64,000 nt of DNA from Fibrobacter sp. UWR3 (GTDB lineage: Bacteria > Fibrobacterota > Fibrobacteria > Fibrobacterales > Fibrobacteraceae): positions 62,001 to 126,000 of the forward strand of contig NZ_FRCW01000009.1 of NCBI RefSeq assembly GCF_900143055.1. Direction: 5' to 3'. This document shows, piece after piece, positions 49,651 to 61,450 of the stretch. The stretch's first letter is position 1, and each line of letters begins with the position of its first letter. Below the pieces are notes generated by a model, which saw only the letters and a list, made by a program, of their open reading frames with translations, had not been told where the DNA came from and did no database searches. The position numbers and the translations under genes were made by a program.

Positions 49651-51357
49651 CTAGGTAGAGAACTTCTTGTTGGTATGCGCCTCGACCACGTTCACCACGT
49701 AGTCGCCGAGCTTTTCGCAGTCGTTCACCACATCCATGTAGTGCACGCCCATCTGGTAGCTGTACTTTTGCGATTCGATATCGGCAATGTTTTTCTCCTT
49801 GAGGAGCTTGCGGTAATCGTTGATTTCGTTTTCCAGGTTCAGCGTGCGGTTCGCATCGGCCGATGCCAGATCGCTAATGACATCGATCATGTTCGTAAGC
49901 GCATTGTCGCACAGCTGCATGATGTGCTTGATATGGCCGTACTGCTCTTCGGTAAAGTCGTCGGTGCTCCTAAACTTGCGGTTGATGGCGCGGGCCATAT
50001 TGTAGCAAGCGTCGCCGATACTTTCGATTTCAGAAATTTCGCGGAGCATCGACTGGATGTTCGTCTTACTTTCGGGGCTCAAGCGACCTTCGGAAACCTG
50101 GTTCAGGTACTTGGCAATCTCGATTTCCATATTGTCGCTGATGCCTTCGTACTTCTCGATGCGGGCAAACAGCTTGACGAAGTCATTTTCGTCCTTCATC
50201 TCGAGCAGTTCGGGCACCATGCGGAACATCTTCTGCGTGCGGGTTGCAAACAAGTTAATTTCCTTGCGGGCTTCGAAGAGCGAAAGTTCTGCGGTACTCA
50301 TGAGGCCCGCACTGATAAACTTGACCTTGAAATCCTCGCCGTCTTCCTTTTCGCGGATAATCTTGCAGATGATTTTTTCCATCGGCTTGATGAACCAGAT
50401 GAGGATAAGCACGTTGCAGAGGTTGAATGCCGTATGGAATGCCGAAAGCGCGTAAGTGACACGGACGCTTGCCTGGGCAACTTCTTCTTCGGTATGCGGC
50501 ACGAACGTCGGGTCAAACCCTACGATGCTGCAAACCATGTTCACGAACGGGCGGAACACAATCAACACCCACACCACGCCGAACACGTTGAAGAGCATGT
50601 GCGCCAAGGCCGCGCGCCTCGCCTGCGTACTTGCCGAAAGTGCCGCGAGGTTCGATGTCACCGTGGTACCGATGTTTTCGCCCATCACGAGCGCAATGCC
50701 CTGGTAAATCGGGAGCACGCCGCTACTGCAGAGCAAGAGCGTAATCGCCATGATGGCCGCAGACGACTGCACGCACATGGTAAGGATGCTACCCAGCAAC
50801 AGGAAGAGGAGCGTGCTGAAGATGCCCCAACCGCCGGTCGTCGTAAAGAAGTTGATGACGGCCTGGTTGTGGGCCAAGTCCATCGCCACCGCATTTTCGC
50901 GCAGCGTAGTAAGGCCGAGGAACATGAACGCGAAACCGAACACGAATTCGCCGATACTCTTGGTCGAGTTCTTCTTGGTGTATGAAAGGATGATGCCGAG
51001 GGCGAAGAAGGGCCACACCACCGAGCTCATGTTGAACTGGAACCCGAATATGGACATGAGCCACGCCGTGGCCGTGGTACCGATGTTCGCGCCCATAATA
51101 ACAGGAATGGCCTGACTCAATGTGAGCAGGCCAGCATTAACGAAGCTTACGGTAAGAACGGTCGTAGCGGTAGAAGACTGCACCGAGGCCGTAACGAACG
51201 TGCCTGTGAGGAGGCCTCCGATACGGTGCTTGGTCATGGTGCCAAGAACTGCGCGGAGGTGCCCGCCGGTGAGTTTCTGCAAGCCTTCGCTCATCGTCTT
51301 CATGCCGAACATGAGCAGCGCAAGGCAACCAATCATTTTGAGAATCATAAGTGTCAT
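49651..51357 (-). CDS. Na/Pi cotransporter family protein with PhoU-like domain
   Basis: 568 residues. N-terminal half has eight or more membrane helices with the doubled QSS motif of the family (TASVQSSTATTVLTVSF and CVQSSAAIMAITL), each in one of two inverted repeats. Residues about 350-568 are soluble and helical, PhoU-like (ISEIESIGDACYNMARAINRKF and MQLCDNALTNMIDVISD). Imports phosphate with Na+. A start with AGGA nine bases upstream fits. A hairpin repeat region follows the stop. The -10-like AAATATAGAAAAAA at 51454-51467 serves this strand. Confidence 0.88.
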   Translation of the reverse strand: MTLMILKMIGCLALLMFGMKTMSEGLQKLTGGHLRAVLGTMTKHRIGGLLTGTFVTASVQSSTATTVLTVSFVNAGLLTLSQAIPVIMGANIGTTATAWLMSIFGFQFNMSSVVWPFFALGIILSYTKKNSTKSIGEFVFGFAFMFLGLTTLRENAVAMDLAHNQAVINFFTTTGGWGIFSTLLFLLLGSILTMCVQSSAAIMAITLLLCSSGVLPIYQGIALVMGENIGTTVTSNLAALSASTQARRAALAHMLFNVFGVVWVLIVFRPFVNMVCSIVGFDPTFVPHTEEEVAQASVRVTYALSAFHTAFNLCNVLILIWFIKPMEKIICKIIREKEDGEDFKVKFISAGLMSTAELSLFEARKEINLFATRTQKMFRMVPELLEMKDENDFVKLFARIEKYEGISDNMEIEIAKYLNQVSEGRLSPESKTNIQSMLREISEIESIGDACYNMARAINRKFRSTDDFTEEQYGHIKHIMQLCDNALTNMIDVISDLASADANRTLNLENEINDYRKLLKEKNIADIESQKYSYQMGVHYMDVVNDCEKLGDYVVNVVEAHTNKKFST

Positions 51358-51545: not shown

Positions 51546-52031
51546 CTACAGACTTCTTACCATCGCGATAGCCTGGCTCGCAATGCCCTCGCCCCTGCCC
51601 GTAAACCCGAGCTTTTCGGTCGTGGTGCCCTTGATGCCGACCTGTTTTACGTCGATTCCGAGCACGCGGGCGATGTTTGCCTTCATGGCGTCCTTGTGCG
51701 GGTTCACCTTCGGGCGTTCGCACATCACGATGCTGTCGATGTTGATAATCTCGTAGCCGGCCTTCTTGACTTCCTCGCCCACCTTGCGCAACAGTTCCAG
51801 GCTGTCGGCGCCCTTGAACGCGGGGTCCGTATCCGGGAAGTACGTGCCGATATCGCCGAGACCTGCGGCCCCGAGCAGGGCATCGCTTATCGCATGCAGC
51901 AACACGTCGGCATCGCTATGGCCCAAGAGGCCCTTCTCGTACGGGATATCCACCCCGCCGATAATGCACTTGCGGCCTTCCACCAATTTGTGAACGTCAA
52001 AACCAATTCCAGAGCGATAAATCTTGTCCAT
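51546..52031 (-). CDS. ispF: 2-C-methyl-D-erythritol 2,4-cyclodiphosphate synthase
   Basis: 161 residues, trimeric enzyme of the MEP pathway for isoprenoid precursors. Zinc ligands by alignment with E. coli positions: Asp 12 and His 14 in GFDVHKL, His 46 in [18 protein letters not shown]. Also [16 protein letters not shown], and [19 protein letters not shown] at the C-terminus. Length is normal. It is last in the leftward cluster, 66 bases after the zinc-ribbon gene, with a REP-like element between them. Confidence 0.95.
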
Positions 52032-52040
52032 AATTATACC

Positions 52041-52078
52041 TACATTGTCATCCCCGGCTCCGACCGGGGATCTCCTTT
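52041..52078. repeat. REP-like element before ispF
   Basis: CATTGTCATCCCCGGCTCCG then CCGGGGATC: stem GATCCCCGG/CCGGGGAT. Related to those at 44669 and 59905. Confidence 0.55.
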
Positions 52079-52096
52079 CCTATAAAATAAAAAAAT

Positions 52097-52675
52097 TCAG
52101 CCTATCCCAAAGTAAAGTTTCTCCATCGTTTCGGCAACTTCGGGGAAATCGTATTCGTCGACGAAGAAAATTCCCTCGTTCATGCGGAAAATAAGGACTC
52201 GACGGCCAGCCCACCTGATTCTCCTTTTCTGCATATCCGCCTTGTCGAACGGGAGGGTAACCCTATCATAGCAGCCGTACAGCACGAATTCATCCTTGTG
52301 GCATTCTATTTTTCGCACGACATTTGCAGAATAAAAGGCATCCCAGAAAATCATTACGGCACCAACAAAGAAGGATACAGACAAGGTAACGCCACGCGAA
52401 TCAAACGCATCCCAGATGATGAATCCAAAAGAAATAGAAATCAGTATGCAGATTATTGCAACGATGTGCCGGAAAATAATCTTTAATTTCCCGGCATGTT
52501 TCCTCTTGCTGTTATACGTAAAGTATACTTCCTTTTCCTCGGCATTTTCAATTTGAGAACCGGAAGGTTCCGCCCCCTCATCAGGCTTCTCTTTTTCTAC
52601 AGGCTTCGCAGCCCCGCACCACGGGCACTGCGGCTCGTAGTAGTTATACCTTTCTCCACATTCCGGACAAATCAT
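52097..52675 (-). CDS. Zinc-ribbon protein with two membrane helices
   Basis: 192 residues. MICPECGERYNYYEPQCPWC is a CxxC-CxxC zinc ribbon; an acidic linker follows (EKPDEGAEPSGS). Two hydrophobic segments (IVAIICILISISFGFIIWDAF; GVTLSVSFFVGAVMIFWDAF) lead to a C-terminal domain of about 80 residues (IECHKDEFVLYGCYDRVTLPFDKADMQKRRI, PH-like in appearance). The gene lies 18 bases after the FISUMP giant at 52694. A second copy of its 5' half, in the same position after another FISUMP gene, is at 56644-56835. The zinc-ribbon opening also starts the gene at 19949. Function unknown. Confidence 0.65.
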   Translation of the reverse strand: MICPECGERYNYYEPQCPWCGAAKPVEKEKPDEGAEPSGSQIENAEEKEVYFTYNSKRKHAGKLKIIFRHIVAIICILISISFGFIIWDAFDSRGVTLSVSFFVGAVMIFWDAFYSANVVRKIECHKDEFVLYGCYDRVTLPFDKADMQKRRIRWAGRRVLIFRMNEGIFFVDEYDFPEVAETMEKLYFGIG

Positions 52676-52726
52676 CTACTGCTCCCTAGCCCGCTAGTCC
52701 TTCACGCAGCGCACGGAATACGAGCG
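52555..52726. repeat. 172-base duplication, copy 1
   Basis: Gapless match to 56715-56886 with four mismatches by eye. It covers the zinc-ribbon 5' end, the 18-base spacer and the last codons of the FISUMP gene. Confidence 0.9.
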
Positions 52727-55700
52727 TCCCTTCATGGTACTTCGGATAATTTCTGGCGAGTCGTAATTGTAATAGAAATTAATGCCATAAAAGATTGCCA
52801 CACTAGAGCCGCTTCCCGAAGCGTCCGATGTCACAAAATACGCATTTTCTTTTGTAGTCCACGTCACCGGAGCTGCCGAGAAGCCAAACATATCATCGAA
52901 GTTCGGCCTAGTCAGCCAATCGGTTTCTGCCTTAAGTCCAACGCCAAACGCCCCGTCATTCTTGTATGTCGCATAGCGCGCAAGTTCGTGCCACTCTTCA
53001 AGAGACGGGATATGCCAACCCGCAGGGCAAATCCCCTGCACCGGGGCACACGTTTGCGAAACAACTTCGTCCTTGGTTCCGTGCACTAGGTTCATTGCCG
53101 CATACCAGTAATACAGACGCCCCGTAGCCTCGCAGGAATCAACGTCGTCCGAGCACCCCGTAAGGCCAATCATGTTCGGGGCTGCGAGCGTGTCGTAGTA
53201 GTTCATGTTTTCTGCCATCCACACCTGCTTGCCGATAGTCGTCACGCGGTAGCGGCGGCCGTCACGCGGGTCGGTAATATAGCCACCTTGCTCTTTGACC
53301 GGAGTTCCCCTTGCCGCTAGTTGTTCATCAGAACATTTTTCCCATTGCACATAGCGCGTCGGGTCATTACGTTTATCCTCAATCTTGCCAAAGAAATTAT
53401 AGTGCGGATACGAAACTCTTTGGTAGGCAAGGACAGAATCCGCATTGTAGTCACAAATAACATCGACATCCTTGCCCATTATTTTCTCGTACCCAACTTT
53501 TCCCAAATCCTCAATGTCATCGCAGCCATCCGTCACTTTTTTTGCGAATTCTTCAATAAGCATTTCTATAAGCGAATCTTTCTGTATGCGGGTAAGTACG
53601 TACACACCACCGTTCTCCTTGCAGTAGAAATAATAGCCATAGGCATCCTGTCGATACTCCAGCGTATCGGGATTTGCGCTACAAGCCTCCAGGTTCGATT
53701 CACCGGCAAGGCTAGCGTAGTAATCCGCCTGTCTTTCATTTATCTCCACAAATACATACTTTCCGTCATGCTTTTCGCAATGGAAATAATCGCCATACAA
53801 GGAATCACGCACAAAAGAAAGCGTATCCGTATTCGCATCGCATGTATACCTCGCATTCACATCAGCAAGCCCTTCCAAGTCCCGGCGCTTCCCGTAACCC
53901 AGCGCTTCGTACTGGTACTTCCCGTCAATAAATGCACAGTGGAAATACGTATTCCAGTCCTTATGGCGCGTCTTCTCGAAATAAGGATGTACAAAAAGTT
54001 CGAACGTGTCGGACTCCGCGGTACACTCCGGCAAAGTCTTTAAATACTGCTCGTTCAAATATTTTTCGGCATGGTCGTAATCCGAGTCGTAGAACTTGAG
54101 AATAGTGTTCCTGATTTCGCAATGGTAGTAACGGTTTGTGGTCGTATCGACGATGTACTTTACCGTGTCCGCCAACGATTTACAGGGCGGCATCGAAGCG
54201 ATAAACGCAAGCGAATCCGCAACGCGCTTTGTCGTCTTTTCAAACGTATAGATGCCGTTCCACTTTTTTCTTTTGTCGGTACAGATGTAATATATGGAAT
54301 CGTACATGACAACGCGAAGCGAATCCGTCGCCTTATCGCAAGGGCGCTGTTCCGAAAGGAACCGGAGAGTATCGTTCACGGGCGTCCAGGAATCAAACGT
54401 ACATACGAACTCGGACGAATCCGGCAACATCTTCCGTTTCCAGATATCACCGCTAGTGCAATTTCCCAACATAAAACTCAGCGTATCCGTTCCGTCATTC
54501 CTCCAGCCTCTATTATAGGCGACACATACATAGATGGTATCGCCGAATTTTTTTCTCAGTCTGGTGGAGCCCCTCGGGGCCTCATTCTCAATCAAGGCGT
54601 TGCTACATACTCCTAGTTCATTATCAAGGACCTCCCCCCATGTAGCCTTGACCCACGTGCTCAGGACTCTAGTCGAATCGTACTGTGTCTTGTGCTTGCA
54701 GACATAGAACACCGAGTCCCCATCCGAAACGAAATTCTCCGTACTGATTGCGGTGCAAGGCCCATACAGAAGTTCTTCGGGAGCAAAAGGCCGGTGGAAA
54801 AAATCCCCATTCCCGCGCTTGTCGCAAAGAAGGGAATCTCCATCCAGTTTCGATTTGCCGTTCTTTACATACGAGACTTTTTCGCCCGCCGTCACGCACG
54901 ATTCCAGGCCATAGGCGTTTTCTACAAAGCGCTCTATAAGCCTCCAACTGAATTTATATCCCGACCACTCTGGATTCAGGTCGTACATGCGCATACGCAT
55001 GTTTTGCCAGTTTTTCACGACATAATCCGCAAACTCGACAAGGGCAAGCGAATCCTCGTAGACTCCATCCGCCAAATCCAGCCGGAAATCCTCGATGTTT
55101 TCTACAAAAGAGGAATCCGTATAATTCCGCATGAACAGCGCAAGCAACGAACCGGTTTCGTCGTAGGCCCTTCCGACAGATTCCGCGGGCAGGGATTCCT
55201 GCTTGAACCCGAAATTTTCGATAAATCGCCGCATGGCGAGTTTCTTCGCGACACTGAACGGATAACCCTCGCCCACAAGCGCCTCGACAAGCGGGACTTC
55301 CAGGTGGGTCATCAGGTTCACGTTCGGTTCGGCGATATTCGAAATGTCGCTAACCGCCTCCAGCGTAAGCGGAACTGCTGTCGAATCCAGGAATTTCCAC
55401 TTTCCCTTCACGCGGACCTTCACATAGGGAAACCTATAATCGCGCGTGGGCATCTTGAAAGAGATTTCCCTTCCTGTATTGAGGGTTCCCGTAGCGGAAT
55501 CGTAGGGCGCAAGCGAACTGTCCAGCTGGATAATCCGAATTTTCTCGGGAACGAAGGCGCCGGTATTAGCACTAGAGGGGAACGTTATTTTCCCTTGTAA
55601 AAGGCGTGTCTTCAGCGGATATTCCCCCGAAAGGTCATGCTCCGAGATTGTCGTGTAATCCGTTTCCGCATTCTCGTAGTACGTATCTTCGTAATAGCAG

Positions 55701-55807
55701 CCGCCGGCAACGAGTGCAAAAAGCAAAAGCATACCGGCAACTATATGCACCGAGCCTTTCGCCAAACGGGAGGGGCGACCCGAAATCATCCACAGAAACC
55801 GTAACAT
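52694..55807 (-). CDS. Giant FISUMP lipoprotein with about ten Cys repeat units
   Basis: 1037 residues from ATG 55807 (GAGAGG upstream). Lipobox AGGC near residue 38. N-terminal domain about 60-330 (LKTRLLQGKITFPSSAN; NVNLMTHLEVPLVEALVGEGYPFSVAKKLA). Then about ten units of 45-55 residues, each with two Cys and a pattern C-(3-4)-DTL or DSL, about 15 residues, Y-x-x-C-(5-9)-Y, for example CDANTDTLSFVRDSLYGDYF. The C-terminus is one FISUMP domain with DPRDGRRYRVTTIGKQVWMAEN and SVRCVKD. Such a repeat chain should be disulfide-linked outside the cell. Overlaps the small lipoprotein gene upstream by 22 bases. Confidence 0.8.
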   Translation of the reverse strand: MLRFLWMISGRPSRLAKGSVHIVAGMLLLFALVAGGCYYEDTYYENAETDYTTISEHDLSGEYPLKTRLLQGKITFPSSANTGAFVPEKIRIIQLDSSLAPYDSATGTLNTGREISFKMPTRDYRFPYVKVRVKGKWKFLDSTAVPLTLEAVSDISNIAEPNVNLMTHLEVPLVEALVGEGYPFSVAKKLAMRRFIENFGFKQESLPAESVGRAYDETGSLLALFMRNYTDSSFVENIEDFRLDLADGVYEDSLALVEFADYVVKNWQNMRMRMYDLNPEWSGYKFSWRLIERFVENAYGLESCVTAGEKVSYVKNGKSKLDGDSLLCDKRGNGDFFHRPFAPEELLYGPCTAISTENFVSDGDSVFYVCKHKTQYDSTRVLSTWVKATWGEVLDNELGVCSNALIENEAPRGSTRLRKKFGDTIYVCVAYNRGWRNDGTDTLSFMLGNCTSGDIWKRKMLPDSSEFVCTFDSWTPVNDTLRFLSEQRPCDKATDSLRVVMYDSIYYICTDKRKKWNGIYTFEKTTKRVADSLAFIASMPPCKSLADTVKYIVDTTTNRYYHCEIRNTILKFYDSDYDHAEKYLNEQYLKTLPECTAESDTFELFVHPYFEKTRHKDWNTYFHCAFIDGKYQYEALGYGKRRDLEGLADVNARYTCDANTDTLSFVRDSLYGDYFHCEKHDGKYVFVEINERQADYYASLAGESNLEACSANPDTLEYRQDAYGYYFYCKENGGVYVLTRIQKDSLIEMLIEEFAKKVTDGCDDIEDLGKVGYEKIMGKDVDVICDYNADSVLAYQRVSYPHYNFFGKIEDKRNDPTRYVQWEKCSDEQLAARGTPVKEQGGYITDPRDGRRYRVTTIGKQVWMAENMNYYDTLAAPNMIGLTGCSDDVDSCEATGRLYYWYAAMNLVHGTKDEVVSQTCAPVQGICPAGWHIPSLEEWHELARYATYKNDGAFGVGLKAETDWLTRPNFDDMFGFSAAPVTWTTKENAYFVTSDASGSGSSVAIFYGINFYYNYDSPEIIRSTMKGRSYSVRCVKD

Positions 55808-56460
55808 ATCGCATCCCTCTCGAGACAAGTTTCCGAGCCCCTCTGCACATCCATGTCAAGTTTTATTTCGTCGTCATCCACAACTACATGAAAAAAATAT
55901 TCCTTCGTCACGTCGCAATCGTATCCGTGTTCCCGCACATAGAATTTTTCCTTGGGTTCGGATATTTCGAATTTATCCTTCTTTATCAGCCTGGTATAGG
56001 AATAGTCTTCGTTGTGAACGACAACCTGTTCGGCGTTCTTGCATCCATAATCGGTACAGCCGTAAATATCCACGAAAAGAGATTGTCCAATTCCGCGTGC
56101 ATACCAGTCGTATTGATCGCTTGTGTTCTTGTACTGCAGGCCAAGCTTTATAGACAGCGCCTCGGCCGAATTCTCAAAACTAGCGGTCACGGAGATAATC
56201 TGGATTGTAGAATCCTTGGCCGGGAGTTTCTTTATCTTTTTAGACGAAGGCTTGTATCCATTAAAATTGAAGGCCGAGATGCTATCGGATTCGGCAAAGG
56301 CGATAATGGCAGAATCGGCACCAGGCCAATAGGCCGAATCGAAAGTCACCCTGTCCAATTTATCCGTAGTGCTGTAGTAATCATACGCAGACCCACACCC
56401 TTCAAGAACAAGGGCAAAAAGCACCAGGCACAAACAGGGTATTATCTCCATTCTTTTCAT
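55786..56460 (-). CDS. Small lipoprotein of the FISUMP cluster
   Basis: 224 residues. Lipobox LEGC near residue 22. The mature part has no family I know; it contains six Cys in the second half (DIYGCTDYGCKN, GYDCDV, ETCLERDAICYGFCG), likely disulfides, and a long segment of polar beta-like residues. TATATT lies seven bases before the ATG without an SD. Its end overlaps the FISUMP gene start by 22 bases, so the two are translated together. Confidence 0.6.
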   Translation of the reverse strand: MKRMEIIPCLCLVLFALVLEGCGSAYDYYSTTDKLDRVTFDSAYWPGADSAIIAFAESDSISAFNFNGYKPSSKKIKKLPAKDSTIQIISVTASFENSAEALSIKLGLQYKNTSDQYDWYARGIGQSLFVDIYGCTDYGCKNAEQVVVHNEDYSYTRLIKKDKFEISEPKEKFYVREHGYDCDVTKEYFFHVVVDDDEIKLDMDVQRGSETCLERDAICYGFCG

Positions 56461-56491
56461 CGCCTATAATATAAATTCGTCACGAGTGTTT

Positions 56492-56835
56492 TCAAAACTC
56501 TCGGGTAGTTTTTCCGACGAAATAGCACAGCAGGGAGACAAAAAGCCCCATTCTGAACCTCTTTTTTAGTATATCCGTCTTGCCATACGGAAGGACTGCC
56601 GAGTCATTGAGCCTATACAACACAAAATCGTCCTTGCGACATTTTATTTCCCGTCACGTTTCTTGCGGGCCTTGTACGTAAAGAATACTTCCTTCTCCGG
56701 GGCATTTTCTATTTGAGAACCGGAAGGTTCTGCCCCCTCGTCAGGCTTCTCTTTTTCTACCGGCTTTGCAGCCCCGCACCACGGGCACTGCGGCTCGTAG
56801 TAGTTATACCTTTCTCCACATTCCGGACAAATCAT
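56492..56835 (-). pseudogene. Broken copy of the zinc-ribbon membrane gene
   Basis: 63 residues from ATG 56835 (MICPECGERYNYYEPQCPWC... to KKRDGK) end in a TAA. Immediately after, in another frame, the C-terminal domain of the intact gene resumes (IKCRKDDFVLYRLNDSAVLP, PYGKTDILKKRF) up to a TGA at 56492-56494. The two membrane helices are missing. A deletion with a frame change best explains this. Confidence 0.75.
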
Positions 56836-56886
56836 CTACTGCTCCCTAGCCCGCTAGTCCTTCACGCAGCGCACGGAATACGAGCG
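56715..56886. repeat. 172-base duplication, copy 2
   Basis: See copy 1 at 52555-52726. Only four mismatches in 172, so the exchange or duplication is recent compared with the rest of the genes. Confidence 0.9.
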
Positions 56887-59778
56887 GCTCACCTCATCCG
56901 TGAATATTGTCGGATTGTCGCCACCATAGGTAAACCGGATTCCAAGAGGTTGCCGGTTGGTAAGATTCGTAATAACATCTGCGGCAGCAAAATAGGCCCT
57001 TTCGTCGGTAGTCCACGTCACGGGCGATGCAGAAAATCCGAACAAATCCCCAGACCAGTTAATGCGATAGCTCCAGCCATCCTTGCCCTTCAAGCCGCCA
57101 CCGTAACCCGCACCGTCATTGTAGTACGAAACATACTGGAACAGTTGCGACCATTCTTCTACCGTGGGGATATGCCACCCGGCGGGGCATATTCCCTGCA
57201 CCGGCAGGCAAAGGTTCTCTTTCACAATTTCCTGGTCAAAATAGTTCGGGACACCAACCGCGGCATACCAGTAGTAAAGCCTTCCCGTCGCTTCGCACTG
57301 TTCCGCATCGCTTGCGCACCCTTGCGGGTCTGTCATGTTCGGGTTCGCCACCGGGTCGTAGTAATTCAGGTTTTCCGCCATCCACGTCTGCTTGCCGATA
57401 GTCACCACGCGGTAACTGCGGCTGTCACGCGGGTCCGTAATGTAGCCATCATGCGCTTCTATCGGAGCACCACGCGCCGCAAGCACATCCTCGCTGCAAG
57501 CATCAATCTTCACGCCTTTCTCGCCGACGTTCTTCCTTGCAGTATACTGGCCGTAATACGCTTCGTCCACCCGCATCATCACAAAGTTCGCATTCGTATC
57601 GTAGTCACATACAAAGTAATACTTATTCGACATGAAATTATTCTTGTCGCTCCTCCATCTTGCGACAGTAGCATCGCAGGGTTCAAGTTTCGCCATATAC
57701 TGGTCGGCAAGCATGTCAGCCAAGGCCTTTTCCTCAATTGGTTCCAAGTGGTATTCGCCACCAGTCTCGACGCAGTAATACAAATACCCGTAAGCATCCC
57801 TCGTGTAGTGTATTTCTTCGCCTGCATCATTACAGAAACTGGACTCCCTCGCCTCCCTCATGCTCTCGTAGCGTTTCAGGTCCCAATAGTCCACCTGTCC
57901 ATAACCGTACTTGCCGTCGACATTCGAGCAATGGTAGAACACATTTACCGTAGATTCATACCTTGTGACGTTATACGGGCAATCGATAATTTCGAGCGTA
58001 TCAGACTCGGCGTTACAGGCAGGGAGCGTTTTCACAAACTCGCCGCACATGGCCTGCCTGCCTGCCTTTTCGTCGACCTCGTAGTACTGGTACTTATCAT
58101 CTCTGGTTTCGCAATGGTAAAAGTGGTTGCCAGTCGAGTCGTACACGTACTGGTACGCATTCACCGGATTGCACGGTTCCTGCATTGCGATAAACGCAAG
58201 CGAATCGGCGACACCACTCGAAACCCCCTTGAAGGAATATATTGCAGGCATATCGCCAATCTTCACATCGTCACACCTGTAATAGAACAGGTCGCTATAA
58301 GAGAACGAACGCAGGGCATCCGTTTCCCTATTGCACTTGCGCTGCTCCGCAAGGAACTTATTGATATCGTTCGCAGGGCTCCACCGCATGCTCAGGGAAT
58401 CGTGCGTACAGACATATTCCGAAGAATCCGGCATGCGCCCGAGCGTCCAGACGCTACCCGTATCGCATTCGCCCAGGTAGAAACCGACAGTATCCTGGCT
58501 CTCGTAATTCCAGGAATACGTGTCGTCCGAAACCACGTGTTCGCAGACGAATATCGAGTCGTGGAACAAGGACTTTTGGCCCAAGTTTTCGGAATGGCAT
58601 GCGCCAAAGTGATAATTCCGGATAAACTCGTCGTCCGCTACTTCCCACCCGTTCTTGAATTCCATGCGGCGACCATCCGCAGACAACCCGAACGAGGCAT
58701 AATTGCCGGTGCACTTGTAAGAAAGTCTCTCGCTTACCTTTTCCAGCCGAGGAGTGCTACCGACAATGCAGGGGCCAAACTGTTTCTCCAAATCGGTCAG
58801 GAACCTCCTGAAATACACGAGCGAGTCATTCTTGTTAAGGACTGCATCGCATACCAGCGAATCCTTGTAATAAGAGGATCTGGAGTTTGCAACCGAATCG
58901 ACCTTACCCAGGCGGTCCTTGCAGTCCGGGAGCCCGAAGGCTTCTTCAACCATGCGTTCAAAGAACTTCCACTTGTTAACGCCAGCGGTTGAATCCAGCT
59001 TATCCAGCAGGGAATCTACACTCAGCCATCTATTGACAATGAACTCGGCAAACTCGATGTTTTTATCAGTATCGTCGATACTCCCATCCGAGAGGTCTTC
59101 TTTCAGGTAGGACTTGTTTTGGGCAAAGCTACTTTCCGACAGGCCTCGCAACAAGTATGCGTACAGCCCGGCAACTTCCTCGAACGGGCGCGCATACAAT
59201 TCTGCAGGGAGCGTATCCTGCTCCGTAAAGTGAAACGCCTTCGCCACATCCTGCATGGCCTTCTTTTTCGCCTCGCTGAACGAGTAGCCCTCTGACACGA
59301 ATTCCCAAATCATCGGGACTTCGATATCCGTCATCAGGTCAATCCTCGGATTTTCTACTTCCGAAATATCCGTTATCACGGAGAAATAAATTCTGTTCGC
59401 CGTGGTGGGCCACATGATGCGTGTAGCATAGGACAGCGAGACTGCTACGTAGGGAGACTTGTAATCGTGAGCAGGGAATTCGAACTCGCTCCGGCTGGCA
59501 TCGACAGGGGAACCTTCCACCGAGTCAATTACATAGAGCGAGGAATCAAGCACATAGGCTACGGCTCGTGAATCCGGGATAAACCATGCATTGGGAGCCA
59601 TGTTCCGCACGCGGAACGACTTGCCTACCAGGGCGTAGTCTTCAGGAGTCGCTTCGTCCTCGATTATCGAGTCTACGCCCGCGCGGTTATAGTCCGAACC
59701 GCCGTCACAGCCCATAAGGCATAACGCGCCTAGAACGAGCGGCAGGCTGGCGGCATATGCGAACTTGAACAAATTCAT
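56854..59778 (-). CDS. Giant FISUMP lipoprotein, second copy of the cluster
   Basis: 974 residues from ATG 59778. Lipobox LMGC near residue 23. N-terminal domain as in the neighbouring giant (FRVRNMAPNAWFIPDS; NPRIDLMTDIEVPMIWEFVSEGYSFSEAKKKAM). Several two-Cys units follow (for example CNAESDTLEIIDCPYNV, CDAVLNKNDSLVYF). FISUMP domain at the end: DPRDSRSYRVVTIGKQTWMAENLNYY, GWHIPTVEEWSQLF, FGFSASPVTWTTD and SVRCVKD. The zinc-ribbon pseudogene follows 18 bases downstream, as in the other cluster. TATATT lies seven bases before the ATG; no SD. Confidence 0.85.
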   Translation of the reverse strand: MNLFKFAYAASLPLVLGALCLMGCDGGSDYNRAGVDSIIEDEATPEDYALVGKSFRVRNMAPNAWFIPDSRAVAYVLDSSLYVIDSVEGSPVDASRSEFEFPAHDYKSPYVAVSLSYATRIMWPTTANRIYFSVITDISEVENPRIDLMTDIEVPMIWEFVSEGYSFSEAKKKAMQDVAKAFHFTEQDTLPAELYARPFEEVAGLYAYLLRGLSESSFAQNKSYLKEDLSDGSIDDTDKNIEFAEFIVNRWLSVDSLLDKLDSTAGVNKWKFFERMVEEAFGLPDCKDRLGKVDSVANSRSSYYKDSLVCDAVLNKNDSLVYFRRFLTDLEKQFGPCIVGSTPRLEKVSERLSYKCTGNYASFGLSADGRRMEFKNGWEVADDEFIRNYHFGACHSENLGQKSLFHDSIFVCEHVVSDDTYSWNYESQDTVGFYLGECDTGSVWTLGRMPDSSEYVCTHDSLSMRWSPANDINKFLAEQRKCNRETDALRSFSYSDLFYYRCDDVKIGDMPAIYSFKGVSSGVADSLAFIAMQEPCNPVNAYQYVYDSTGNHFYHCETRDDKYQYYEVDEKAGRQAMCGEFVKTLPACNAESDTLEIIDCPYNVTRYESTVNVFYHCSNVDGKYGYGQVDYWDLKRYESMREARESSFCNDAGEEIHYTRDAYGYLYYCVETGGEYHLEPIEEKALADMLADQYMAKLEPCDATVARWRSDKNNFMSNKYYFVCDYDTNANFVMMRVDEAYYGQYTARKNVGEKGVKIDACSEDVLAARGAPIEAHDGYITDPRDSRSYRVVTIGKQTWMAENLNYYDPVANPNMTDPQGCASDAEQCEATGRLYYWYAAVGVPNYFDQEIVKENLCLPVQGICPAGWHIPTVEEWSQLFQYVSYYNDGAGYGGGLKGKDGWSYRINWSGDLFGFSASPVTWTTDERAYFAAADVITNLTNRQPLGIRFTYGGDNPTIFTDEVSRSYSVRCVKD

Positions 59779-59897
59779 CGTTATAAATATAGATTCTAAT
59801 GTTTGAAAAAGCGCACGGGTCGCCCGTATTCCCGACAAAACGTAAAGTTATGCGACAAGGGAGGGTTTCCAACCCTCCCTAAGACCCTCCCGGAAAC

Positions 59898-59925
59898 AAA
59901 AAAAGATCCCCGCCTACGCGGGGAT
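59898..59925 (-). terminator. REP-like element acting as terminator of the nuo operon
   Basis: GATCCCCGCCTACGCGGGGAT stem at 59905-59925 with an A run at 59898-59904, which is a T run on the minus strand. It closes nuoN. Confidence 0.75.
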
Positions 59926-59974
59926 GACAAGACTCACGCAAAGGCGAGCCTAAAGGTCTTTTTTACAGGTTTCG

Positions 59975-61450
59975 CTAGCCGAGCAGCGCCTTGCCGGGGA
60001 ACATGCTCATGGCGATGAGGGCAATCGCAGAAATTGCCACCGCAAACTTGAGCATGTAGGTGAACGCGGCCTGGGACTTGCAACAGCAGCACTTGCACTC
60101 GCCTTCCGCCTTCACGGGCATAAACAGCACGTAGGCAATGCGCAGGTAGTACACCGCCGCCACCAGCGAAAGCACGAAGGCGAATATCGCAATGGCGCCA
60201 TGGCCCGCGGCGAACACGTCGGTAAAGAGCGCGAACTTCGCGAGGAAGCCTGCAACAGGCGGGAGACCGGCGAGGCTAGCGAGGCAAACCGTAGCGCCGA
60301 GCGCCACGAACGGATGCTTGCGGCCTGCACCCTGCAGGTCTTCGAGATTTTCCTTGCGGTCACCCTTGCCCGAAAGGTAGGCAACCCCCGTAAGGGCACC
60401 CGCACTCGCAACGGCGTAGGTCACCAAGAAGTAGAACATTGCACCGAGCTGCACCGTACCGTTCTTCAGGTAGCTCGGAACCAGGAGGCCGAGTACAATG
60501 AAGCCCGCGTTCATCACGGCAGAGAACGCGAGGATACGGCGAATGGACTTCTGGGCAAGGCCGCTAAACGCACCGACAAGAATCGAGAGCACGGCGACAA
60601 TCACCACCAGGTAGAAAACCGGCTTGGACTGCCCTGCGGCAGTAACCTGTTCGGAGAGGTTCCAGGCACCGGCGACACCGGCGCGGGTAACGAGCATGCC
60701 GAGCCACACGGAACCGAGAGCGGCGAGCGCCCCCACCTTCACGACGGCAGCCATGAAGCCCGTGACCGCGACAGAAGCACCCGTATAGACGTCAGCCACC
60801 CAGTAGTGCACCGGAGCGGCGCCCGCCTTGAACAGGAGCCCGAAAATAGTGAGCAGAATGCCAATCGCATAGATGGGTTCACGGCCCTGCAGAATCAGCG
60901 CACTGAAGTGAGTCGTGCCGGTCGCACCGTAAACGAGCGCCACACCGTAGAGGAATATGGCACTGAAGATGGAGCCCGAAACGAAGTACTTGAACACGCC
61001 TTCACCCGCGTTAGTATCCTTGCGGCGGATACCCACCAGGGCGTACACCGGGAAGCTCGTGAGTTCCATGGCGATAAACAGGGCGACAAAATCAATCGCC
61101 TGAGTCATGAGGAGTGCGCCGGTCGAAGCGAGCAGCATGAGCCCGTAGGCCTCGCCACCCTTGTGGCCTTCGTGACCGAGGGTCCACTGCAGGCCCGAAA
61201 CGCCGAGCAGCGTGCAAAGCAGCACGGCAAGCCCGAGCAGGCGACGGACCGGGTCCATGGCGAACAGGTCGTGGCACGTATCGGTTGTCACGAGCGCGAA
61301 AGACGCCATGCCCAGAGCCACGAATACGGCAGCAAACCAGGGGATAATCTTGTGCTTGTTGTCGTCCTTAAGGAACGGTTCCATCACCAGGGTAGCGAGG
61401 GCACCGAGAGCGACAACGATTACCGGGAAAAAGTTGACGATACTAGTCAT
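59975..61450 (-). CDS. nuoN: NADH-quinone oxidoreductase subunit N
   Basis: 491 residues, about 14 membrane helices, an antiporter-like proton pump subunit of complex I. Family features: AIDFVALFIAMELTSFPVYALVG (Glu of the proton path), FKYFVSGSIFSAIFLYG, FGLLFKAGAAPVHYWVADVYTGA (Lys and His of the channel), LAQKSIRRILAFSAVMNAGF. A loop near residue 460 (EGECKCCCCKS) has five Cys in six residues, which I have not seen in NuoN. Overlaps nuoM by eight bases, so translation is coupled. Confidence 0.92.
   Translation of the reverse strand: MTSIVNFFPVIVVALGALATLVMEPFLKDDNKHKIIPWFAAVFVALGMASFALVTTDTCHDLFAMDPVRRLLGLAVLLCTLLGVSGLQWTLGHEGHKGGEAYGLMLLASTGALLMTQAIDFVALFIAMELTSFPVYALVGIRRKDTNAGEGVFKYFVSGSIFSAIFLYGVALVYGATGTTHFSALILQGREPIYAIGILLTIFGLLFKAGAAPVHYWVADVYTGASVAVTGFMAAVVKVGALAALGSVWLGMLVTRAGVAGAWNLSEQVTAAGQSKPVFYLVVIVAVLSILVGAFSGLAQKSIRRILAFSAVMNAGFIVLGLLVPSYLKNGTVQLGAMFYFLVTYAVASAGALTGVAYLSGKGDRKENLEDLQGAGRKHPFVALGATVCLASLAGLPPVAGFLAKFALFTDVFAAGHGAIAIFAFVLSLVAAVYYLRIAYVLFMPVKAEGECKCCCCKSQAAFTYMLKFAVAISAIALIAMSMFPGKALLG

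Follow-up and report, generated by a model that had tools for sequence, protein, structure and literature searches.

Divergent FISUMP lipoprotein genes in tandem at a variable nuoN–ispF interval of Fibrobacter

Gene content of the interval

The window (the whole stretch of 64,000 nucleotides analysed here) belongs to a Fibrobacter genome, denoted here as G000, of 3.55 Mb in 20 contigs, 100% complete and with 1.09% contamination; in the genome collection it is related to MAGs of rumen Fibrobacter, among them RUG14609 (G045) and RGIG8275 (G103). Between the conserved genes nuoN and ispF, the window carries two units, each composed of a large FISUMP lipoprotein gene and a gene with a zinc-ribbon motif (denoted ribbon 1 and ribbon 2), together with a smaller lipoprotein gene, LP3, which the initial annotation had overlooked and which sits between the two units and precedes only one of them (Table 1). 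Fibrobacter is one of the main degraders of cellulose in the rumen, and few of its unexplained proteins are as numerous as those with the FISUMP domain, to which the G000 genome has 137 matches. Promoter- and terminator-like sites in the window showed no excess over the number expected by chance.

Table 1. Positions in the window of the genes and sequence features of the nuoN–ispF interval and its flanks.
Feature	Position	Strand	Remarks
ispF	51546..52031	(-)	conserved right flank; match in 72/80 same-genus genomes
Ribbon 1 (192 aa, beta subtype)	52097..52675	(-)	CxxC...CxxC, two membrane helices, C-terminal beta domain; starts at 52675
Joint repeat, copy 1	52555..52726	(-)	4 mismatches in 172 vs copy 2
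18-base spacer, copy 1	52676..52693	(-)	same bases as copy 2
FISUMP lipoprotein 1	52694..55807	(-)	start 55807 or 55789; ends at 52694; domain models
LP3 (224-aa lipoprotein)	55786..56460	(-)	first gene of a conserved pair; lipoprotein gene directly after it in 38/38 members
Ribbon 2, out-of-frame C-terminal remnant, alpha subtype	56552..56644	(-)	28/31 residues as G059, 15/31 as ribbon 1
Ribbon 2, remaining open frame (63 aa)	56644..56835	(-)	intact 63-codon frame, TAA end; starts at 56835
Joint repeat, copy 2	56715..56886	(-)	4 mismatches in 172 vs copy 1
18-base spacer, copy 2	56836..56853	(-)	same bases as copy 1
FISUMP lipoprotein 2 (974 aa)	56854..59778	(-)	without LP3 partner; ends at 56854; domain models; 61% / 59% aa identity to the single FISUMP of G045 / G103
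Terminator-like hairpin 3' of nuoN	59906..59925	(-)	8-pair stem and T run; such sites number as by chance
nuoN	59975..61450	(-)	conserved left flank; 95.5% / 96.3% aa identity to G045 / G103

As in other members of the family, both large lipoproteins end in the FISUMP domain, with scores above the curated cut-offs of Pfam PF09603 (Fib_succ_major; 70.8 and 69.2 bits against 33.9) and NCBIfam TIGR02145 (136.1 and 131.3 against 41.65), and their N-termini are lipobox-like by pattern. The two proteins are homologous along their full length and share 38% identity, while their synonymous sites are saturated (pS 0.75). In the tree, FISUMP 2 and the single FISUMP genes of G045 and G103 form a group (97/100). 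FISUMP 1 falls outside this group and has no firm branch among the LP3-linked FISUMPs. By identity it is nearer to those of G029, G101 and G030 (47-48%) than to FISUMP 2. A fold prediction for FISUMP 1 from four sequences reached a mean pLDDT of only 41.6. According to PMC4704652, most Fibrobacteres carry TIGR02145 in 17 to 119 copies, and a role in binding cellulose is suggested there.

LP3 has 38 matches in 29 of 80 Fibrobacter genomes. The gene directly after it encodes a second lipoprotein in every case, its lipobox being recognized by pattern in 37 and by eye in one; in the window this partner is FISUMP 1, which overlaps the LP3 stop (by ATGA for the start at 55789). A mechanical recount placed a lipoprotein after 32 of 34 LP3-family ORFs, compared with 12 among 99 further ORFs with a lipobox (p about 1.5e-18), and the two LP3-family exceptions are the partner ORF itself (L157) and an ORF other than the listed LP3 match (L150). 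The lipobox Cys22 and both cysteines of a DIYGCx4C motif are invariant (25/25). No Pfam family matched more than one LP3 member, LP3 belongs to no curated family, and its profile had no match among solved structures.

The ribbon genes and the joint

Four cysteines of the ribbon (C3, C6, C17 and C20) are invariant in the ten members aligned. All Pfam and NCBIfam matches nevertheless stayed under the curated cut-offs, the best zinc-ribbon model being DZR (13 bits against 27.3) and a TcaA-like NCBIfam match being likewise sub-threshold; since no curated model was reached, the zinc-ribbon name is taken from the motif only. The protein resembles zinc-ribbon membrane proteins of the DZR and TcaA-like types in that membrane helices come after a CxxC-CxxC motif close to the N-terminus, and differs from them in these sub-threshold scores and in its C-terminal beta domain, predicted to be cytosolic and weakly PH-like. 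The structural model (mean pLDDT 78.6) comprises the CxxC-CxxC head, helices 63-90 and 93-118, and a C-terminal domain of six strands with a last helix, the closest meaningful solved folds of which are PH domains; the match to that of Rtt106 is weak (E 0.086, probability 0.91), and a second structural search with the model was dominated by helical hairpins. Given the lack of a signal peptide and the tight hairpin, the ribbon is predicted to be an inner-membrane protein with its head and beta domain facing the cytosol.

Ribbon 2 had been described as a gene that is out of frame and no longer encodes membrane helices, and comparison with its closest relative, the single ribbon of G059, bears this out: about 181 nt are missing, including the helix region, and what follows is out of frame. 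The 63-codon frame is succeeded by a deletion junction at a short imperfect repeat. Two further shortened ribbon genes lie at the same spot in other genomes (L138:7070-7414 in G113 and L059:5711-6028 in G006), which suggests that the C-terminal half of the ribbon decays repeatedly. A Fibrobacter-type ribbon gene with its neighbours was also found on L073, a MAG contig labelled Treponemataceae, a label that is probably due to a binning error.

The initial annotation had drawn attention to two FISUMP genes with strongly diverged bodies and a near-identical joint, in which each FISUMP gene is followed after exactly 18 bases by a ribbon start and the 172 bases of the joint differ at four positions; all of this was confirmed. 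The joint opens with 119 exactly matching bases and has an abrupt upstream edge at 52726, and a longer match over it spans 245 bases at 92% identity. When both copies are compared with the single joints of G045 and G103, the 29 informative sites fall into only 5 runs, as few as were obtained in none of 100,000 shuffles, and define a mosaic of three tracts: copies 1 and 2 first agree with each other against G045 and G103, next copy 2 agrees with these genomes, and last copy 1 does. Such clustering of conflicting site patterns at a seam is as expected for gene conversion or recombination. The order of the tracts implies that the single unit of G045 and G103 corresponds to the left part of copy 2 joined to the right part of copy 1 within the ribbon linker. 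Thus, of the earlier proposal that gene conversion or recent exchange keeps the joint, the part that stands is that recombination or conversion shaped it. A crossover in the ribbon linker may have removed a unit from G045 and G103 or added one to G000. Two units may accordingly be the ancestral condition, with one of them lost in both relatives, or a derived one.

Variability of the interval across the genus

The nuoN–ispF interval was examined at 73 loci, 52 of which were resolved with both flanks, the 21 others having no nuoN on the fetched stretch. The interval, which in the window corresponds to positions 52031-59975, is variable across the genus: about 10 of the 52 are nearly empty (302 nt or less), and the others differ in their cargo, which includes unrelated genes such as those for a nucleotidyltransferase (G012), an ATPase_2 protein (G004) and a FISUMP protein that also matched a collagen repeat below threshold (G008). 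Sites without cargo, and cargo that varies while the flanks stay the same, are the marks of a hotspot. LP3 is present in six of these intervals and is followed by a FISUMP gene in each.

The pairing of FISUMP and ribbon fared differently from that of LP3 with its partner. The initial annotation had regarded it as constant and as a hint that the two proteins work together, proposing a count of such pairs as a check. A ribbon was found in 16 of the 52 intervals, a same-strand FISUMP in 13 and both in four, exactly the number expected by chance (4.0; Fisher p = 1); opposite-strand FISUMPs in G037 and G043 were left out of this count and would bring it to 15 FISUMP intervals and five shared ones. 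Twelve of the 16 ribbon intervals have no same-strand FISUMP, and nine of the 13 FISUMP intervals have no ribbon. Only in G000, G045 and G103, three genomes of one clade, does a FISUMP gene stand immediately before a ribbon, and only these three carry the joint. None of the ribbon relatives found elsewhere in the G000 genome comes closer than about 3.6 kb to a FISUMP domain. The claim of a constant pairing did not survive this count. In the literature on the FISUMP family, as far as its accessible text goes, no pairing with a ribbon or with LP3 was found, and the papers listed in a literature search included nothing on the LP3 pair or the nuoN–ispF locus, with no match for the word FISUMP in the papers searched.

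Probable exchange of cargo and its alternatives

Cargo and flanks contrasted in pairwise comparisons of synonymous divergence. Between G045 and G103, dS is 0.18 for nuoM, 0.19 for nuoN and 0.05 for the ribbon, and rises to 0.91 for the FISUMP gene lying between them (62% amino acid identity). Likewise, G010 and G030 differ by 0.24 in nuoN and 0.10 in ispF, against 0.97 in LP3 and 2.45 in the FISUMP gene. The reverse pattern is found between G106 and G030, with 0.72 for nuoN and 0.43 for ispF, as opposed to 0.25 for LP3 and 0.11 for the FISUMP gene, and these opposite patterns are hard to explain without transfer. G101 and G030, close in LP3 (dS 0.05) and less so in the FISUMP gene (0.63), break the simple picture of a unit exchanged as a whole.

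A control on G045 and G103 used regions hand-picked because their FISUMP genes are of comparable length. Each genome contributed 20 such regions and the locus itself, and 16 pairs could be matched up. The median dS was 0.45 for 13 FISUMP pairs, among them L184/L204 (376 against 258 long), which are probably not orthologous, and 0.24 for 92 other ORFs; most of the FISUMP pairs were 80-99% identical. The notion that FISUMP genes are swapped everywhere was rejected on these values. As FISUMP genes in general are just mildly more divergent, the nuoN–ispF locus is unusual, though not alone: a few other genes in the control were as divergent as its FISUMP. One gene of this kind, at L181:2670-3710, has a dS of 1.3 and 47.5% amino acid identity between the two genomes, with conserved neighbours.

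We consider it probable that nuoN–ispF is a variable spot at which cargo is exchanged between strains, and that in G000 old divergent alleles stand in tandem, with the conserved seam serving as a site of crossover or conversion. The simplest agent of such exchange would be homologous recombination by way of the conserved flanks; both this agent and the order of events that follows are what we infer from the patterns described above. On this reading, G000 would have two cargo units side by side, namely FISUMP 2 with an alpha ribbon that is now broken and LP3–FISUMP 1 with a beta ribbon, brought into tandem as old alleles and not by recent duplication. The seam, formed by the last FISUMP codons, the spacer and the ribbon N-terminus, would be near-identical, while the bodies are not, because crossovers and conversion took place there; ribbon 2 would have been broken later by the deletion of about 181 nt. 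Loci with swapped surface-protein alleles and hotspots of chromosomal integration are both held in place by conserved flanks. The present locus is like them in its housekeeping flanks, empty sites, variable cargo and allele divergence far above that of the flanks, and differs in that a single genome carries two alleles one after the other, with the seam homogenized.

A first alternative, which we regard as unlikely, is that the two units are old paralogues, ancestral to G000, G045 and G103, that stayed alike at the joint only through gene conversion, with no exchange between strains. The conversion-like tract of 119 exact bases fits this reading, as does the resemblance of G045 and G103 to the product of a deletion between two joints, but it leaves unexplained both the FISUMP dS between these genomes at flanks of 0.05-0.19 and the reverse pattern of G106 and G030. 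An old paralogous pair and exchange between strains are compatible and could both be true.

It is very unlikely that FISUMP and the ribbon form a functional pair whose joint and order are held by selection. The order is kept in the three genomes mentioned with a spacer of 18 or 21 bases, and the two genes also adjoin in G114, though in the reverse order. Against this, the co-occurrence is that of chance, most ribbons and FISUMPs of the interval stand without the other, and the predicted compartments differ: a direct complex between a cytosol-facing ribbon and a FISUMP lipoprotein with export signals would be unlikely, which also speaks against the annotated hint of joint function. The near-identical joints are best explained by recombination and not by such a partnership. 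The G114 case (L136:7390-10108) has the ribbon first and the FISUMP after it, opposite to the window.

An artefact of assembly, merging two strain haplotypes or introducing a consensus error in the repeat, is highly improbable: a genome in 20 contigs could yield two alleles from mixed strains, but the exact run of the repeat is only 119 bases, with distinguishing sites on either side, and completeness and contamination are as given above. Hardly any credence is left for a recent tandem duplication of the FISUMP–ribbon pair followed by fast divergence of the FISUMP bodies under positive selection. The duplication was part of the initial annotation, and the near-identical joint and the homology of the bodies along their length agree with it; it was rejected because saturated synonymous sites stand beside 119 exact bases, and the ribbon 2 remnant is of the other subtype and LP3 precedes one unit only. 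Finally, variation of the FISUMP bodies by a diversity-generating retroelement, suggested by the naming of the FISUMP domain among the targets of such elements in human microbiomes (PMC4159848), is practically negligible, as no reverse transcriptase (PF00078) was matched in the G000 genome at E 0.001 or better and the divergence covers the whole protein, synonymous sites included.

As part of this probable scenario, LP3–FISUMP would be a surface-binding module of exported lipoproteins that is selected for variety. More tentatively, and as a possibility viewed with some reserve, LP3 and its partner may constitute a surface module of two lipoproteins that is widespread in Fibrobacter and has not been described before. 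At nuoN–ispF, its FISUMP-bearing form would be exchanged among strains in the manner of a serotype or receptor locus, G000 having been caught with two types at once. Exchange of a FISUMP gene with a sharp seam, and a constant partner that is another lipoprotein instead of the zinc-ribbon protein, would direct experiments to the right pair, and the approach can also serve to detect FISUMP alleles on which selection for variety acts.

Beyond ispF, the window has a Na/Pi cotransporter gene with a 61-nt repeat inside it (72%, at 50661-51132); an internal repeat is expected in this transporter, which has a two-fold sequence repeat.
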